From Longimicrobiales bacterium (GTDB taxonomy: Bacteria; Gemmatimonadota; Gemmatimonadetes; Longimicrobiales; Gaopeijiaceae), in assembly GCA_028278645.1 (NCBI GenBank), contig JANQDZ010000002.1, positions 1-64,000 on the forward strand: a DNA stretch of 64,000 nt, read 5' to 3'. How positions within the stretch are numbered: the stretch's first letter is position 1; each line of letters opens with the position of its first letter. The notes below the pieces were generated by a model that was not told where the DNA came from, did no database searches, and saw nothing but the letters and a program-made list of their open reading frames with translations. The position numbers and the translations under genes were made by a program. Positions 7,612 through 26,664 of the stretch are shown here, piece by piece.

Positions 7612-8694
7612 TCAGGCGGTCGCTGGTGCGTGGGTTTGCTCCAAGGCGGAAAGCACCGCATCTCCCACCTCCCGGGTCGTGCAGGGGGTTCCTCCCCCGA
7701 GTCCCAGGTCCGGAGTCATGAACCCCTGACGAAGGGCCGTCGCGACCGCGTCCTCCACGGCCCGAGCCTCCTCCTCCAGGTCGAGGCTATGCCTTAGAAG
7801 CATGGCTGTGCTCAGAATCGTGCCCATGGGATTCGCCAGCCCTCGGCCAGCGATGTCGGGCGCGGATCCGTGGATGGGCTCGTACAAACCCACCCTCCCC
7901 TCGGCCACAGACGCAGAAGGAAGCATACCGAGAGACCCGGCGAGAACGGACGCTTCATCGGAGAGTATGTCGCCGAACATGTTCCCTGTGACCACAACGT
8001 CGAAGGTGGCGGGCCGCCGGAGGATATGCATGGCAAACGCATCAACCAGGACGTGCTCCACCTCGATGTTCGAGTAGTCATCCGCTACCTGGTCCACCAC
8101 TCTTCTCCACAGGCGACTTGAAGCAAGGACGTTTGCTTTGTCCACCGAGGTCACCTTTCGCCTCCGACCCTCCGCGACTTCGAACGCCACGCGGGCGATC
8201 CTCTCCACCTCGGGAACCGAGTAAAGCAGCGTGTCATGAGCATCACTGCCCGAACCTTGCTCTTTTCGGGGTCCGAAGTAGATCCCCCCTGTCAGTTCCC
8301 TCACAAAAAGAACGTCCACTTCCTTAAGGACTTCCGGCCTGAACGGCGTTAGGTCGGCGGCCTCCGGAAGGAGTCGTACGGGACGGAGATTGGCGAACAG
8401 GTCGAAGGTCTTTCTCAACTCCAGGAGCGCTTGTTCGGGGCGCACGTCCTGGCCGTCGAATCCCGGATCCCCGACGGCCCCGAGGAGCATGGCGTCGGCT
8501 CCGTTGCACGCCTCCAGGGTCTCCGGCGGAAGAGGCCGACCTGTTGCCCGGATCGCCGCCCCGCCGATGAGAGCATCCTCCAGAATAAAATCGTGGCCCC
8601 AAAGACCGGCCACCGCCAAGAGTATTCGACGACACTCTTCCAGAACTTCCGGACCTACGCCATCTCCGGGCAAAAGAACGATTCGGGCTTTCAT
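7612..8694 (-). CDS. leuB: 3-Isopropylmalate dehydrogenase
   Basis: A 360-residue enzyme that oxidises and decarboxylates 3-isopropylmalate with NAD+, the third step of leucine synthesis. The start MKARIVLLPGDGVGPEV at ATG 8694 fits the family. Visible landmarks are LRPVRLLP, RELTGGIYFG, TSVDKANVLASSRLWR, VDAFAMHILRRPATFDVVVTGNMFGDILSDEASVLAGSLGMLPSA and LYEPIHGSAPDIAGRGLANP. Its ATG overlaps the stop of leuD, and it is the last gene of leuA-leuC-leuD-leuB. Confidence 0.97.
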   Translation of the reverse strand: MKARIVLLPGDGVGPEVLEECRRILLAVAGLWGHDFILEDALIGGAAIRATGRPLPPETLEACNGADAMLLGAVGDPGFDGQDVRPEQALLELRKTFDLFANLRPVRLLPEAADLTPFRPEVLKEVDVLFVRELTGGIYFGPRKEQGSGSDAHDTLLYSVPEVERIARVAFEVAEGRRRKVTSVDKANVLASSRLWRRVVDQVADDYSNIEVEHVLVDAFAMHILRRPATFDVVVTGNMFGDILSDEASVLAGSLGMLPSASVAEGRVGLYEPIHGSAPDIAGRGLANPMGTILSTAMLLRHSLDLEEEARAVEDAVATALRQGFMTPDLGLGGGTPCTTREVGDAVLSALEQTHAPATA

Positions 8695-9323
8695 GAGGTC
8701 CCGGCGTCTTTCTGGATCGAAAACCCGTTGCCTCGCCCGTCGTGGCCGGCTTCGAAAGCCTCGATGGCCGGGAGTTGTTCGAGGAGATGTCCCATAGGAT
8801 CGATCCCTTGGAGCATGCAATGTTTTGCGAAAGCATCGATCTCGAAGGAGGAGGCGGTTCCATCGGGAAGCGTGACCTCCTGCATCTCCAGGTTCACCGA
8901 GACCTGGGCGTCCCCATCAGCCTGGATGGAGGCCAAGAGGCTTCGGTGTGTTTCCGCATCAAGCGTGACGGTGAGAAGCCCGTTTCGGTGGGCATTACCC
9001 CTGAAGATGTCCGCGAATCCCAGGCCGAGAATCACCCGGAAACCCCAGGCTTGAAGAGCCCAAGGTGCATGCTCCCTGGAACTGCCGCACCCGAAGTTTT
9101 CCCCTGTCAAAAGGATGGGGGACGATCTGTGTTTCGGCTGGTGGAGGACAAAACCCGGGTCTGGCGTGCCGTCTTCCAGGAAACGCCACCCGTGGAACAA
9201 GCCTCCGGAAAGGCCTTCCCGATCCACCACCTTCAAAAAGGAGGCCGGGATGATCTGGTCGGTGTCCACATTGTCCACAAGAAGCGGCACGGGAGATCCA
9301 CCAACGGTCACGAAGGGCTCCAT
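8691..9323 (-). CDS. leuD: 3-Isopropylmalate dehydratase small subunit
   Basis: A 210-residue partner of LeuC in isomerising isopropylmalate. It starts [31 protein letters not shown] at ATG 9323, which overlaps the leuC stop. The diagnostic segment GENFGCGSSREHAPWALQAWGFRVILGLGFADIFRGNAHRNGLL (read around residues 75-118) contains the swivelling-domain substrate loop. Length and motifs fit the bacterial LeuD family of about 200 residues. Confidence 0.97.
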   Translation of the reverse strand: MEPFVTVGGSPVPLLVDNVDTDQIIPASFLKVVDREGLSGGLFHGWRFLEDGTPDPGFVLHQPKHRSSPILLTGENFGCGSSREHAPWALQAWGFRVILGLGFADIFRGNAHRNGLLTVTLDAETHRSLLASIQADGDAQVSVNLEMQEVTLPDGTASSFEIDAFAKHCMLQGIDPMGHLLEQLPAIEAFEAGHDGRGNGFSIQKDAGTS

Positions 9324-10747
9324 CACATCACCTCCCTGGGGTCCGTGATTCGCCCGGAAAGGGCGGTAGCTGCAGCGGTCAAAGGGCTTCCGAGGAACGT
9401 CCGACCACCGGGCCCCTGCCGCCCTTCGAAGTTTCGGTTCGAGGTGCTCAAAACGTACTCTCCGGGTCCCAGCCGGTCGGTGTTCATCGCCAAACACATC
9501 GAACACCCTGGATTCCGCCACTCTGCCCCGGCTGCGAGGAAGACCTCGGAAAGGCCCTCAGCCTCAGCCTGACGCTTAACCTGTTCGGATCCGGGGACGA
9601 CGAGCATCCGGACCCCAGGCGCGACCTTCTTGCCATCGAGGATCGTCGCCGCGGCCCGGAGGTCTGAGATTCTCGAGTTCGTGCAGCTTCCCAAAAAGAC
9701 CGCCTGAACCTCCCGGCCGCAGACCTGGGATCCAGGGGTCAGGTCCATGTAACTGAGGGCCTTTCCGAGCCCTTTCATTTGTCCGGGGGGAAGGGTGTTT
9801 GGGTCGGGGATCCTACCGGTGACAGGAATGGCCATCCCTGGGTTGGTGCCATACGTAACCATGGGCTCGAGGACGGCGGCATCGATCACAACAGACCGGT
9901 CGTAGGACGCCCCAGGATCGGACGGCAGTGACTCCCAAAAAGCCACGGCCTCTCGCCAGCCTGGGCCTGAAGGCGTGCCCGGGCGGTTCTTCAGATAAGA
10001 AAAAGTAGTCTCGTCAGGCGCGATCATCCCAGCCCGGGACCCAGCCTCAATGGACATGTTGCAGACTGTCATCCGCTCTTCCATGTCCAGGGACCGGATG
10101 GCTGAGCCGGTGTATTCGATGACGTGCCCGGTGCCTCCGTCGATCCCCACCGATGCGATGATTCCCAGGATCAAGTCCTTGGCCGTCACACCGGCAGGCA
10201 GCATACCCTCCGCCTTGATCTCGAGGGTCTTGGGCTTATGCATGAGGAGGGCCTGGGTTGCCAACACGTGGCCGACCTCCGTGGTGCCGATTCCAAAAGC
10301 CAGGGCGCCGAATGCCCCGTGCGTACTGGTGTGGCTATCCCCGCATACCACCGTCATTCCGGGTTGGGTGAGGCCGAGCTCGGGCCCCATGACATGAACG
10401 ATCCCATTGTACCGACTCCCCAAGGGATGGAGTTCGATTCCATGCCGGGTGCAGTTCGAAAGCAGGCGATCCAACTGATCGGCACCCCGGGGATCCAGAA
10501 TGTCCAAGTCTCTCATCGAGACGCCCGGCTCGGTCGGGGTGGAGTGATCCATCGTGGCCACCGTTTGATCTGGCCGCCGGACGCCGAGTCCCCGAGACTC
10601 GAGCTCGGAGAAGGCCTGCGGGGAGGTGACCTCGTGAATCAAATGAAGATCGATGTAGAGAACCGATGGCATCCCGTCTTGAACAGGCCCGGAAACCAGG
10701 TGCCGGTCCCAGACTTTCTCGAAGAGGGTCCTTGGTCGACCGCTCAT
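9323..10747 (-). CDS. leuC: 3-Isopropylmalate dehydratase large subunit
   Basis: A 474-residue aconitase-fold subunit that carries the 4Fe-4S cluster. It starts [18 protein letters not shown] at ATG 10747, overlapping the leuA stop by 4 bases. Family signatures are [50 protein letters not shown] (cluster Cys) and [11 protein letters not shown] (two further cluster Cys), followed by [12 protein letters not shown]. The enzyme works with LeuD. Confidence 0.98.
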
Positions 10748-12375
10748 GCTCCGTGCCCCACTCGGCTCGATCCCCCGGGCTGTGCCTTGGCTGGCTCCCC
10801 CACCGCCGCGACGGCGCGCTTGGAAACGATCAGGCGATTGATAGCAGCAAGATAGGCCTGGGCGCTGGCAGCGATGATGTCGGTATCGGCGCCATAGCCA
10901 CCAAAAACGCGGCCCTCTTCTGAATCCGATTCTCTGATTCTCACCGTCACCTCACCAAGAGCGTCGATTCCTGCGGTCACGCTGTGGACATCGTACTCGA
11001 TGAGGGTGCTTCTGACCCCGACCAGCTGGTCGATTGCCCGGAAAGCGGCGTCCACAGGGCCCGCCCCGATGGCGGCAGCCGTTTCGGTCCCGCCTGGCCC
11101 CGCCAACCTCACTGTGGCAGTGGACATCCCGGGCTGCCCGCAGGCGACCTGCAGGTCCTTCAGGTCGTGGACAGCTTCAGGATCGGTGATCTGTTGGCGT
11201 GCCAGGACGGAGAGGTCTGCATCGGTGACAGTCTTCTTCAAATCGGCCAACTCTTTGAATCGGTTGAAGGCATCGATGGTCTCCTCCTCGGAAAGAGTGA
11301 AGCCCAACTCCTCCATTCGGACTTTGAATGCGTGACGGCCACTATGTTTGCCCAGGACCAATCGGCTCCGAGGAATCCCCACGGTTTCCGGCCTCATGAT
11401 CTCATAGGTCCGTTGATCCTTAAGCATTCCGTCTTGATGGATTCCCGCCTCATGGGCAAAAGCGTTGGGACCCACTACGGCTTTGTTGGGGGGAACTTGG
11501 ATGCCCGTGAAGTTCGAGACGATCCGAGAGGTCTGGACCAGGCGGTCTTTCTCCACACCGGTGTAGAGCCCGAACCGGTCTCCCCGGGTGTACAGGGCCA
11601 TGACCACTTCTTCCAGGCTTGCGTTCCCAGCCCGCTCGCCGATGCCGTTCATGGTGACTTCGGCCTGCCGTGCCCCAGCCTTCAACCCCGCAACGGTATT
11701 GGCTGTGGCGAAGCCGAGGTCGTCATGGCAATGGACGGACCAAATGACGTCGTCACTTCCCGGGGTGTTGCCAATCAGGTAGCGGATCAACTCACCGTAT
11801 TCGCCCGGCATGGCGTACCCGACGGTATCGGGGATGTTGAGGGTCGTGGCACCTGATTCGATGGCGGCGCTCAGGACCTCCACCAGGAATCCGGGATCGG
11901 AACGGGTGCCATCCTCCGGGCTGAACTCGACATCCGCGCAATAGTTCTTAGCATGAGCCACCATGGTGCTGGCCTTTTCCAGCACCTGACCCCGGGTCAT
12001 GCAGAGCTTCCGTTCCAGATGGAGATCTGACGTGGCGATGAACGTGTGGATCCGAGGCTTCTCCGCCCCGCTCACGCCGGTCCAGGCCTTATCGATATCC
12101 GTGGCTGAGGCCCGAGCCAAGCCCGCCACGATGGGCCCACCGGCCCCTCCGACCTCCTCAGCAATCTGCTGCACGGCATCAAGATCACCCGGACTGGCCG
12201 CAGGGAATCCCGCCTCGATAACGTCGACCTTCAAGAGGGCCAATTGCCGGGCTACCTTGACCTTTTCCGGAACCGTGAGGCTCGCGCCCGGGGACTGCTC
12301 TCCGTCCCTGAGGGTGGTGTCAAAAATGCGAACGGGTGCATAAGGCTCGTTTCCCGATGTATCAAAACCGTTCAC
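10744..12375 (-). CDS. leuA: 2-Isopropylmalate synthase
   Basis: A 543-residue enzyme that condenses acetyl-CoA with 2-ketoisovalerate, the committed step of leucine synthesis. GTG 12375 is the preferred start because GAGGAG (12383-12388) sits 7 bases upstream; an ATG at 12411 lies inside the terminator U-tract region without a ribosome site. The TIM barrel shows [31 protein letters not shown] and the metal/substrate segment [16 protein letters not shown]. The C-terminal part ([25 protein letters not shown] type) is the LeuA dimer domain that binds leucine for feedback inhibition. It is preceded by an attenuator. Confidence 0.97.
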
Positions 12376-12413
12376 GGCTTTTCTCCTCGAGTCTACTTTC
12401 CAGTCGTTCATTC

Positions 12414-12449
12414 AAAAAAAACGCCCCCGGTCTTGGGAACCGGGGGCGT
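12414..12449 (-). terminator. Transcription attenuator in front of leuA
   Basis: On the minus strand a perfect 11-base stem (arms 12439-12449 and 12421-12431, loop of 7) is followed by a run of T residues (12414-12420). It is a strong intrinsic terminator placed between the Leu-rich leader peptide and leuA. The leader segment 12488-12496 (CTGGGGGCG) can pair with 12440-12448 of the 5-prime arm (9 pairs, one G-U), giving a competing antiterminator. This is the classic layout for ribosome-controlled attenuation. Confidence 0.85.
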
Positions 12450-12481
12450 CGTTTCGGCTGCTCTCTAAGATCTACTCGCGC

Positions 12482-12613
12482 CTACGTCGCCCCCAGCGTA
12501 AGGAGGAGGGGAAGGAGGCTAAAAAGGAGAACCGCCAGCGGACCGGAACGGTCCCATGACTCTATGGCCAGAGCTCGGCAATGGTTCGGTTCTCTCGCGT
12601 TGCGCAATCTCAT
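12482..12613 (-). CDS. leuL: Leucine-rich leader peptide of the leu operon
   Basis: A 43-codon reading frame, ATG 12613 to TAG 12482, too short for standard gene callers. Its C-terminal third reads LAVLLFSLLPLLLTLGAT: nine leucines in fifteen residues, just before the stop. The stop is 33 bases from the attenuator stem. A ribosome slowed at the Leu codons would leave the following GGGGGCG free to form the antiterminator; one that reaches the stop would cover it. The N-terminal part is ordinary and no ribosome site precedes the ATG, so a later internal start is possible. The predicted transcription start lies only a few bases upstream, so the message could be leaderless. Confidence 0.75.
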   Translation of the reverse strand: MRLRNAREPNHCRALAIESWDRSGPLAVLLFSLLPLLLTLGAT

Positions 12614-12622
12614 AAGGTTCAG

Positions 12623-12651
12623 AGGCTAAAAGGGGCCAAATAGCAAGTCAA
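12623..12651 (-). promoter_or_regulatory. Probable leu operon promoter
   Basis: The minus strand carries TTGACT (12651-12646), a 17-base spacer and TAGCCT (12628-12623). The -35 box is good and the -10 box weak. Initiation would fall near 12614-12617, almost on the leader-peptide ATG at 12613. Confidence 0.5.
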
Positions 12652-12778
12652 CCTTTTTGTGTCTTCCGGGCCGGCAAAACCCGTGACCCGAGGAGCGGTC
12701 GGTCACCATCTATTGATTTTCGGATTCACCGGCTGGATTGTGACCCGATCGATGCACTTCTCGACTTCAGGAGAAACG

Positions 12779-13744
12779 ATGTCCCCAGAATCCTTGACCG
12801 TCGCCTTGGCCCAGATCTCCCCCGTCTGGCTCGACCGTGAAGCGACGGTGAAGAAGGTCGCTCACTGGATCGACGGGGCTGCCGACAAAGGAGCGAAGTT
12901 GGTGGCCTTCGGAGAAACCTTAGTGCCGGGCTATCCCCATTGGCTGTCTCACACCGGTGGCGCCGAGTTCGACTCCAAGGTTCAAAAAGAGATCCACGCA
13001 CACTACCTGGATCAGGCCGTCGACCTTCATGCAGGACATCTGGACCTGCTCAGCGAGAAAGCGAGAGCGCGCGGGATCCATGTCATGGTCGGGTGCTACG
13101 AGCGGCCCATAGACCGCGGAGGCCACACAGGCTACTGCTCCCTGGTATCCGTCGATACCACCGGTGGAATCCAGAACGTTCACCGGAAGGTCATGCCGAC
13201 CTACGAAGAGCGTCTCAGCTGGGGCACCGGAGACGGACACGGCCTGAACGTCTTCCCTGTGGGCCCCTTCAAGGTCGGCGGGCTCAACTGTTGGGAGAAC
13301 TGGATTCCCCTCCTGCGCACCGCCTTGTACGGCCAGGGGGAAGACCTTCACGTGGCGGTTTGGCCCGGCAGCCCGAGGCTCACCCGGGACATCACACGGT
13401 TTATGGCGTTGGAGGGGAGGTCTTTTGTCCTTTCCGTATCCGGCGTGTTACGGCGGGAGGATATCCCCGACTCGGTTCCCCACCGCGACTTGATCGTGGA
13501 TTCGGTGCCGGAGGTTTTGGCTGACGGCGGGTCCTGCATGGCTGCCCCAACGGGGGAGTGGGTCATAGAGCCGGTGGACGCCCAGGAGCAGCTCCTGGTG
13601 GCCGAGCTATCTCTGGCCACGGTCTATGAGGAACGACAGAATTTTGATCCTGCCGGCCACTACTCAAGGCCGGACGTGGTGCGCCTCCGCGTCAACCGCC
13701 AACGCCAATCAATCCTGGCCGACGAGTACGAGGCGGAAGAATGA
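12779..13744 (+). CDS. Nitrilase (carbon-nitrogen hydrolase)
   Basis: A 321-residue enzyme of the nitrilase branch that hydrolyses nitriles to acids. ATG 12779 has AGGAG upstream. The catalytic triad is visible: Glu46 in VAFGETLVPGYPHW, Lys137 in NVHRKVMPTYEERLSWG, and Cys171 in GGLNCWENWIPLLR. The GYPxW and NCWE contexts are those of true nitrilases rather than amidases. The stop overlaps the start of a PLP decarboxylase (ATGA), so the two probably act in one pathway, perhaps on an aromatic or amino-acid-derived nitrile. Substrate unknown. Confidence 0.92.
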   Translation: MSPESLTVALAQISPVWLDREATVKKVAHWIDGAADKGAKLVAFGETLVPGYPHWLSHTGGAEFDSKVQKEIHAHYLDQAVDLHAGHLDLLSEKARARGIHVMVGCYERPIDRGGHTGYCSLVSVDTTGGIQNVHRKVMPTYEERLSWGTGDGHGLNVFPVGPFKVGGLNCWENWIPLLRTALYGQGEDLHVAVWPGSPRLTRDITRFMALEGRSFVLSVSGVLRREDIPDSVPHRDLIVDSVPEVLADGGSCMAAPTGEWVIEPVDAQEQLLVAELSLATVYEERQNFDPAGHYSRPDVVRLRVNRQRQSILADEYEAEE

Positions 13745-15246
13745 GTCGGGAACCCGAGTTCGGCCTGCCTCAGGATAGTCCCGACTTCGTCCGGGAAGTT
13801 GGCGATCGGGTGACTAGCATCATTTCGGATTGTCTCGTCACACGGACGACTCAATCCATCACGGACCCCACTCCCGTAGCCGAGATCCGGGCCCTCTTTT
13901 ACGAAAGCCTCCCAAGGGAAGGAACGGACCACCAACAGCTCCTCGACCTGTTCGCGGACCAGATCGTCCCCCACACGTTGGTGAACACCAGCCCCGGATA
14001 CCTGGGGCTAATGAATCCCACGCCGGTGACCATGGGCATCTTCGCCGACGCCCTCACCAGCCTCATCAATCAAAACCAAGCGGCATCACACCACAGTCCC
14101 GCTGGATCGGTCATCGAGGAGGTCGTAATCCGGTGGCTGGGCGAGGCCGCGGGGTACGGCGCCGACTGCCATGGACACCTGACCAGCGGAGGCACGGTAG
14201 CGAACCTTACGGCCTTGAAGCTGGCCCTTCACCATGCAGCGCCAGAGGTGCGGGACCGGGGGTTGGTGGCGGCGGGTCAAAAATTCACGGTCTACGCCTC
14301 CGACCAACTCCATTTCAGCATCGAAAGGTCGGTGGACGTTCTGGGCCTCGGCCGAGATGCCCTCCGCCTCGTTCCCACCCGAGGCGACGCCACCGTTGAC
14401 CCCAAAGTCATGCGGAGTCTCATCGAAGCCGACCGGAGGGAGGGGATGGAGCCTTTCGCCATCGTAGGGATCGCCGGCACCACCGCTTCGGGAGCCGTGG
14501 ATCCCCTCCCGGAACTGGCCGACCTGGCGGAGGACCTCGGCACCTGGTACCACGTGGACGCGGCCTACGGTGGAGCCGCCGGGCTAAGCCGAGACTACCC
14601 CGGGATCCTGGAGGGAATCGAGCGGGCCGACTCGGTCACTGTGGACGCCCATAAGTGGTTCTTCGTTCCCTTCGTTGCAGGCGGGATCCTCTTTCGGGAC
14701 AGAAGTTTCGCCGAGGAGGTATTCCAGAACGCGGCAGGATACATCCCTCCCAGCGAAGCCGCCGATCTTCCACCCACCGACTACCTGAAGCAGGGCTTGG
14801 CAGGTACTCGACGGTTCAACGCCCTGAAGGTTTGGATGGCGTTTAAGCATCTGGGAGCGGATTGGTACGCCTCCGTCGTAGACCGTCAGCTGGCCCTGAC
14901 CCACAGGGTCGCAGAGGTTGTCGCCAGCCTGCCCGATTGGGAGGTAGCCATCCAGCCCACCACCGCCATCGTGACCTTCCGCTATGAGCCGGCCACCCTC
15001 CGAAAGGCCATCGAGGGTGGTGGCGAGGAAGGGGAGAAAGCAGCCAAAAAGCGGGACCGTCTCCAGATCAGGATCGCGAAAGTCATTCAACAGGAAGGGC
15101 GTTTCTGGGTTTCGGCAGCACCTGTCCCCGGCGGGTTCGCTCTCAGGTTGAACGTCATTTCCTGGCTGAGCGACGAAGCTCTGGTGGAGGCTTTTCTCGC
15201 GGAGTTACCGCGGTACGCTCAGGAGGCCGCGCCCGGTTTCGATTGA
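13741..15246 (+). CDS. PLP-dependent group II amino-acid decarboxylase
   Basis: A 501-residue enzyme of the aromatic-amino-acid/glutamate decarboxylase fold. Visible are HLTSGGTVANLTALKLA (cofactor phosphate loop), YASDQLHFSIERSVDVLGLG, the cofactor-binding Asp273 in WYHVDAAYGG and the Schiff-base Lys305 in TVDAHKWFFVP. It overlaps the nitrilase gene by 4 bases. Its substrate could be Trp, Tyr, Phe or Asp; the sequence does not decide. Its 3-prime end overlaps the convergent symporter gene by 28 bases. Confidence 0.9.
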   Translation: MSREPEFGLPQDSPDFVREVGDRVTSIISDCLVTRTTQSITDPTPVAEIRALFYESLPREGTDHQQLLDLFADQIVPHTLVNTSPGYLGLMNPTPVTMGIFADALTSLINQNQAASHHSPAGSVIEEVVIRWLGEAAGYGADCHGHLTSGGTVANLTALKLALHHAAPEVRDRGLVAAGQKFTVYASDQLHFSIERSVDVLGLGRDALRLVPTRGDATVDPKVMRSLIEADRREGMEPFAIVGIAGTTASGAVDPLPELADLAEDLGTWYHVDAAYGGAAGLSRDYPGILEGIERADSVTVDAHKWFFVPFVAGGILFRDRSFAEEVFQNAAGYIPPSEAADLPPTDYLKQGLAGTRRFNALKVWMAFKHLGADWYASVVDRQLALTHRVAEVVASLPDWEVAIQPTTAIVTFRYEPATLRKAIEGGGEEGEKAAKKRDRLQIRIAKVIQQEGRFWVSAAPVPGGFALRLNVISWLSDEALVEAFLAELPRYAQEAAPGFD

Positions 15247-26404: not shown

Positions 26405-26477
26405 TGGCCGCTGCTGGACTCGAACCAGCGACCCCATCGATGTGAGCGATGTGCTCTGCCAACTGAGCTAAGCGGCC
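26405..26477 (-). tRNA. tRNA-Val (anticodon CAC)
   Basis: A 73-base cloverleaf with acceptor GGCCGCT/AGCGGCC, D arm GCTC/GAGC, anticodon stem CATCG/CGATG with loop CTCACAT, and T arm GCTGG-TTCGAGT-CCAGC. Anticodon CAC reads GUG valine codons. The 3-prime CCA is not encoded. Confidence 0.96.
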
Positions 26478-26554
26478 TTACTACCTGGACCTGCTCGCGG
26501 CCCTGAAGCCAGGGCCCCAACGAGTCGGCCAGGCCTCGCGGCCTGGCGGAGCAA

Positions 26555-26627
26555 TACCCCCAGGGGGAATCGAACCCCCGTCTCCTGGCTGAGAACCAGG
26601 TATCCTGGGCCACTAGACGATGGGGGC
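26555..26627 (-). tRNA. tRNA-Glu (anticodon CTC)
   Basis: The sequence folds as a glutamate tRNA with acceptor GCCCCCA/TGGGGGT (first pair G-U), D-region GTCTAGTGGCCCAGGA, anticodon stem CCTGG/CCAGG around loop TTCTCAG (CTC) and T arm GGGGG-TTCGATT-CCCCC. It is upstream of tRNA-Val in the same direction, with a 77-base spacer that contains a 7-base hairpin (26529-26546). CCA is not encoded. Confidence 0.94.
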
Positions 26628-26664
26628 AATCAGCCCGACAAACACCAACTCCAGGGCGGCCCTA

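Follow-up and report, generated by a model that had tools for sequence, protein, structure and literature searches.

A predicted leucine attenuator ahead of leuACDB in a Gemmatimonadota genome, with related leaders in other bacterial groups

The leuACDB operon of this Longimicrobiales bacterium is very probably controlled by a ribosome-mediated transcription attenuator, which would tune transcription of the operon to the supply of leucyl-tRNA. The element lies on the minus strand of the window, i.e., the 64,000-nucleotide stretch of DNA analyzed here, and combines a leader ORF rich in codons for the cognate amino acid, an intrinsic terminator intervening between this ORF and leuA, and an antiterminator that excludes the terminator. 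Equivalent arrangements were found before leuA at 52 loci, and in the window's own genus the operon may have arrived together with its switch from another phylum.

The leu leader and its two alternative stems

The features of the locus are as follows.

12646–12651, minus strand: –35 box TTGACT of the leu promoter (sequence; TTGACTTGC identical in G002, a genome of the same genus)
12623–12628, minus strand: –10 box TAGCCT, spacer of 17 nt (sequence; TTAGCCTC identical in G002)
12482–12613, minus strand: leader peptide ORF MRLRNAREPNHCRALAIESWDRSGPLAVLLFSLLPLLLTLGAT, 43 codons, from ATG 12613 to TAG 12482 (ORF; ortholog in G002)
12494–12538, minus strand: run of Leu control codons, CTG GCG GTT CTC CTT TTT AGC CTC CTT CCC CTC CTC CTT ACG CTG (9 Leu)
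12484–12497, minus strand: region 2 GCTGGGGGCGACGT, putative strand of the antiterminator, which overlaps the stop codon of the leader (duplex energy; swap test)
12439–12452, minus strand: region 3, i.e., the terminator 5' arm ACGCCCCCGGT (12449–12439) with ACG (12452–12450) used by the antiterminator
12414–12449, minus strand: intrinsic terminator with 11-bp stem, 7-nt loop and T8 (sequence; extended hairpin –28.1 kcal/mol)
12383–12388, minus strand: ribosome site GAGGAG of leuA (sequence)
10744–12375, minus strand: leuA, 2-isopropylmalate synthase, GTG start (NF002086/TIGR00973 above cut-off)
9323–10747, minus strand: leuC (TIGR00170 above cut-off)
8691–9323, minus strand: leuD, start set by profile match (TIGR00171 above cut-off)
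7612–8694, minus strand: leuB, start set by profile match (TIGR00169 above cut-off)

The identities of the four genes were taken from NCBIfam equivalogs, and the genes follow each other nearly without gaps in the order leuA-leuC-leuD-leuB. A first-pass annotation, made from the letters alone, had described a promoter, a 43-codon frame with nine Leu in fifteen residues, a perfect 11-base terminator stem with a T-run, and leuA with a ribosome site of its own; all of these were recovered on the minus strand as it had stated. Leu accounts for 9 of the 15 residues of LAVLLFSLLPLLLTL, and the C-terminal end of the ORF reads LAVLLFSLLPLLLTLGAT. The –10 box is poor, such that a strict consensus scan lists no match there; the leader ATG is placed 9 nt past it, and a Shine-Dalgarno sequence is absent before this ATG. 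The reading frame of leuA is already open from an ATG at 12411, and its start is most likely the GTG at 12375 that is preceded by GAGGAG (12388–12383). On the other side of the leader, the upstream neighbor (12659/12776–13744) is a nitrilase-like gene divergent from the leu operon, and the terminator therefore cannot serve a minus-strand operon lying upstream. This neighbor (Nit6803 type, below the family cut-off) is followed by a PLP-dependent decarboxylase gene in the interval 12659–15246, a pair that is also adjacent in a further genome of the genus (G001). Elsewhere in the window, the minus strand carries a tandem of tRNA-Val(CAC) (26405–26477) and tRNA-Glu(CTC) (26554–26628).

The terminator arms ACGCCCCCGGT (12449–12439) and ACCGGGGGCGT (12431–12421) form 11 perfect pairs around the loop TCCCAAG, with the T8 run at 12421–12414. 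In the competing structure, GCTGGGGGCG (12497–12488) pairs with CGCCCCCGGT (12448–12439) through 10 pairs, including 2 G-U, and a second block, CGT/ACG, adds 3 more pairs beyond an A-A mismatch. The first-pass annotation had proposed that the leader end pairs with the terminator 5' arm, over 9 pairs; this was borne out, and the length was slightly underestimated, with 13 pairs in two blocks. The antiterminator duplex has a predicted energy of –25.3 kcal/mol (z –4.5 relative to shuffled sequences), it is mutually exclusive with the terminator, and its region 2 is placed for control by a ribosome at the leader stop. In minimum-energy folds the terminator is kept in every register that holds the whole terminator hairpin, and read-through must therefore be kinetic, as antitermination likewise is in known attenuators. 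A helix of the Leu run with region 2 appears for the window in the predicted fold alone.

Stalling, the choice between termination and read-through, and leucine as the signal are taken here from the established attenuation of trp, his and leu operons. By this analogy, RNA polymerase would start at the leader ATG or a few bases before it, and a ribosome would follow on the Leu-rich ORF. With ample Leu-tRNA, above all for CUC and CUU, the ribosome would reach the stop codon; because the stop lies inside the antiterminator strand, a ribosome there would cover region 2, the terminator would form, and transcription would end before leuA. Under leucine shortage, the ribosome would stall in the Leu run and region 2 (GCTGGGGGCG-A-CGT) would be left free to pair with the terminator 5' arm (region 3), so that no terminator would form and the operon would be transcribed.

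The hairpin is strong on its own, and could in principle act as a constitutive partial terminator that imposes a fixed reduction on leu transcription, the small ORF being non-regulatory. We consider this highly improbable, since the Leu-rich ORF and the antiterminator are conserved and co-adapted to the terminator (see below), and since the Leu content is peculiar to the leu site. Both strands of the window hold 21 terminator-like sites, and the leu site is the only one preceded by an ORF with at least 5 Leu in 15 residues, making the combination of Leu-rich ORF and terminator unique in 128 kb of strand; a density of 9 Leu in 15 was reached by 1 of 911 small ORFs. Upstream regions of real leuA genes showed a terminator together with at least 6 Leu in 49 of 184 cases, as compared to 0 of 920 dinucleotide-shuffled ones. 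In the window's genome, no terminator with a short ORF was found upstream of trpE and of three ilvB-like genes, and a near-identity search of plasmids gave no match.

Conservation and co-adaptation in relatives

The closest comparison is with G002, in which a contig (C310) ends right behind an orthologous leader. Here the ATG is again 9 nt past the –10 box, and the leader of 44 codons has the Leu-rich C-terminus AVLLLGLLLLPLLTPGAT, a 3-nt in-frame insertion and the same stop codon. The N-terminal half of the leader has diverged between the two genomes, with the frame remaining open across about 25 diverged codons and the 3-nt indel being in frame; the stretch GGGGGCGACGTAG, in turn, is unchanged, and the antiterminator pairing is kept in G002 at –26.1 kcal/mol. 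The terminator reads AAGCCCCCGGT/ACCGGGGGCTT in G002 relative to ACGCCCCCGGT/ACCGGGGGCGT in the window, i.e., a compensatory change from C/G to A/T. The last feature on the contig is a GTG after AGGAGG at the position of the leuA start. Conservation in relatives, on which the first-pass annotation had staked its reading, is thus seen within the genus for the Leu-rich end, the antiterminator and the terminator alike.

Co-adaptation of the two stems was assessed by a swap test, in which pairs of leader end and terminator arm from the same locus reached –25.8 kcal/mol, relative to –21.3 ± 0.5 kcal/mol with the arms of other loci (0 of 20,000 permutations), a figure that includes a contribution of sequence relatedness; yet each leader end follows its terminator class. 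Covariation was counted in alignment A2, made of 19 sequences of family f6, and the alignment of window-type leaders (A1) was left out as too uneven. The terminator of the f6 leaders was paired in 98.9% of cells with 8 double-change cells, a value as high being found in 0 of 500 shuffles. The f6 antiterminator was paired in 91.4% of cells, as compared to 38–47% when slid; taken alone, in this one alignment, it showed weak covariation, a single pair having changed on both sides (69 of 500 shuffles). A third structure, a hairpin inside the Leu codons, showed changes on both sides in 4 pairs, and had 9 double-change cells (0 of 500 shuffles). In L144, L148, L162, L173 and other f6 leaders this covarying hairpin stands just before the antiterminator strand and has a TTA-containing loop (e.g., GAGC-ATTACT-GCTC). 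The loop is mostly kept irrespective of whether it is read as Leu or as Ile, and this points to a role at the RNA level, such as that of a pause hairpin. For the two alternative stems, whose conservation the first-pass annotation had likewise made a point of, the comparison therefore yields an antiterminator co-adapted to its own terminator, and a terminator that covaries together with the Leu-codon hairpin.

A covariance model (R1) was trained on the 19 f6 leaders, with the window excluded. It gave one match in the window's 4.9-Mb genome, at 12413–12508 on the minus strand (E 3e-4). When R1 was run on 200 genomes, matches below E 1e-9 sat at leuA leaders, and most of the weaker matches that were checked proved to be plain terminators without a Leu-rich ORF. 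Because plain terminators reach E around 1e-4, the match in the window is supporting only. The covariance search that had been put forward as a check thus singled out the expected site in its genome, with a score no better than that of some weak, chance-like matches elsewhere.

The control codons of the leaders show a modest bias. CTC and CTT make up 236 of 398 Leu codons in the leaders (59%) and 445 of 1013 in leuA of the same loci (44%; p 2e-7), CTT alone rising from 7% in leuA to 24% in the leaders; in the window, CTC/CTT are 7 of the 9 control codons. The choice of isoacceptor is expected to matter in attenuation theory (PMC1183508). A promoter score of at least 8 was reached by 90% of leader loci, as compared to 3.75% of shuffles. 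The distance from the –10 box to the leader ATG is 9–11 nt in the window, G002, L052, L053 and L068, where the transcript would accordingly start only a few nt from the ATG, and 30–70 nt at many other loci. The leader ORF of the window is thus probably translated from a leaderless, or nearly leaderless, transcript and not from a ribosome site.

Known leucine leaders and other possible modes of control

The leader of the Streptomyces lividans leuA gene is transcribed leaderless (PMC8079986), and the leaderless feature is therefore not new in kind. Actinobacterial leuA genes resemble that of the window in having a Leu-rich leader ORF ahead of them, and they offer a precedent for control at the level of leuA translation (by translational attenuation or reinitiation) and not of transcription: their leaderless Leu-rich ORFs come without typical terminators (PMC8079986), and in the LEU element the Leu run pairs with the leuA ribosome site (PMC1262725), a pseudoknot having been proposed (PMC1262725; PMC8079986). 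In the window, unlike in the LEU element, a canonical terminator and an antiterminator are present. A perfect terminator with T8 stands between leader and leuA, the leuA ribosome site (12388–12383) is 25 nt past the T-run and outside the hairpins, and the conserved helices are those of terminator and antiterminator. Translational control is, on these grounds, as improbable as a constitutive terminator. Less probable still is use of the terminator by another sensor of leucine, i.e., a T-box, riboswitch or protein with the Leu-rich ORF incidental: such systems govern leu genes in other bacteria, but at gathering score neither the window nor 20 leader loci had a match to an Rfam T-box or riboswitch, a relaxed Rfam search gave weak, chance-level matches only, and little 5' RNA would be available, given that the ORF opens only a few nt from the predicted start site.

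The preferred reading, ribosome-mediated attenuation of transcription, has two further points of comparison. Enterobacterial leuL (Rfam RF00512, Leu_leader) shares with the window a Leu-rich leader ORF, alternative antiterminator and terminator, and a leu operon downstream; it differs in its rare CUA control codons, where the window has CTC, CTT and CTG, and the window further has a nearly leaderless ORF and belongs to a different phylum. The trp- and his-type attenuators of Proteobacteria share the predicted logic, with control codons, a 2:3 antiterminator over the leader stop and a 3:4 terminator, and differ in amino acid, sequence and lineage, as well as in that transcription in the window would start almost at the leader ATG. 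The first-pass annotation had argued from proteobacterial attenuation, a precedent that holds for the logic and not for the kinship, since the leaders most closely related to the one in the window come from an Acidobacteriota-labelled class and from other Gemmatimonadota. At gathering score, the 20 leader loci matched no Rfam family except a tRNA, and no leader family was matched in the window; RF00512 itself had no match in the window's whole genome or in the 20 loci. By its features the element would thus be classed as a ribosome-mediated attenuator outside the Rfam Leu_leader family.

In the open literature we found no earlier description of leucine attenuators for these bacterial groups, and in a survey of 2010 almost none of the attenuators predicted in Acidobacteria had an associated function (PMC2965389). 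The comparative evidence is strong that classical leucine attenuation, a well-known kind of switch, extends to Gemmatimonadota and an Acidobacteriota-labelled class, with one case in Planctomycetota. About 50 leaders, detected by no Rfam model, are ready to form a new Rfam family, and they make it possible to ask whether a switch coupled to translation can survive being moved from one phylum to another.

Distribution and origin of the leuA leaders

The leuA upstream regions compared came from three sources: 98 relatives, 298 genomes belonging to the phylum, and 80 contigs from named genomes. Among the genomes of the phylum, G159 (of the same class) has a contig, C4, with 100% identity to a plasmid of Gemmatirosa kalamazoonensis across the 8 kb compared, which places the window in Gemmatimonadota. 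A Leu-rich ORF and a terminator precede leuA at 52 loci in Gemmatimonadota, the Acidobacteriota-labelled class and one Planctomycetota MAG, so that the Leu codons and the layout, whose absence from relatives would have spoken against the first-pass annotation, are widely shared. Three kinds of terminator, differing strongly in sequence, are visible among the leader loci. GCGGGCC- or GAGGCCC-terminators belong to leaders in the order of the window, and CCGCGG-terminators to those in family f6. GCCCCCGG-terminators occur in the window and in L053, L054, L062, L066 and L068, which are MAGs labelled Thermoanaerobaculia/Acidobacteriota and Deltaproteobacteria; L052 is also of this type but has 4 Leu in 15 and was left out of the 52. 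When the class of L062 was sampled, all six GCCCCCGG-type MAGs (L052, L053, L054, L062, L066 and L068) were recovered, together with L263 and L265. Among the 30 loci read in this class, the attenuator was found at 8 of 12 stand-alone leuA genes and at none of those directly behind ilvC. In L241–L258 of the same class, leuA follows ilvC immediately and no terminator was detected in between, and the Chloroflexota loci L031 and L032 are arranged alike.

In a quick tree of 103 LeuA sequences, leuA of the window joins Acidobacteriota-labelled ones (support for the inner group 98) and not other Gemmatimonadota, and the attenuator-bearing members of this group have the C-rich (GCCCCCGG) terminator type of the window. 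This suggests, as the simplest reading, that leuACDB was transferred into the window's genus together with its attenuator. Contamination of the MAG as the source of a foreign leuA was rejected, because genomes of the same genus match the flanking genes and leuCDB at 72–82%, i.e., G001 the flanking genes at 77–82% and G002 the leuCDB part at at least 72%. G001 conserves the nitrilase side of the locus (77.5%), and across the stretch of its contig that was read, no match to the leu operon was found beside it; the contrast between G001 and G002 fits a gain in one lineage or a loss in the other. We lean slightly towards a history in which the genus acquired leuACDB and the complete attenuator (promoter, leaderless leader ORF and GCCCCCGG terminator) as a portable module from an Acidobacteriota-class lineage, most attenuated native Gemmatimonadota leuA genes being a separately evolved class with GCGGGCC or CCGCGG terminators. 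If this is true, a whole translation-dependent RNA switch would have moved between phyla and been kept under selection in a genus without detectable ilvC. The gene for ketol-acid reductoisomerase, ilvC, went undetected in the genome of the window (95.6% complete), in G001 and in G002, despite leuACDB in the first of these, and likewise in G022 (99% complete), which has leuA with an attenuator. Leucine synthesis in such genomes would have to draw 2-oxoisovalerate from elsewhere, e.g., from valine.

In the Planctomycetota MAG (L103), a short leader, MERGLLLLDLLLPLLRSPS, for which GGAGG provides a good ribosome site, and a terminator stand upstream of leuA; they may represent a leucine attenuator of independent-looking origin in that phylum. 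In genus g12 (G013, G162, G172, G221, G273 and G319), the match to leuA shows, in all six genomes, the same two internal stops (one TGA and one TAG) within a long open stretch, and the leuA region is perhaps fused or decayed.
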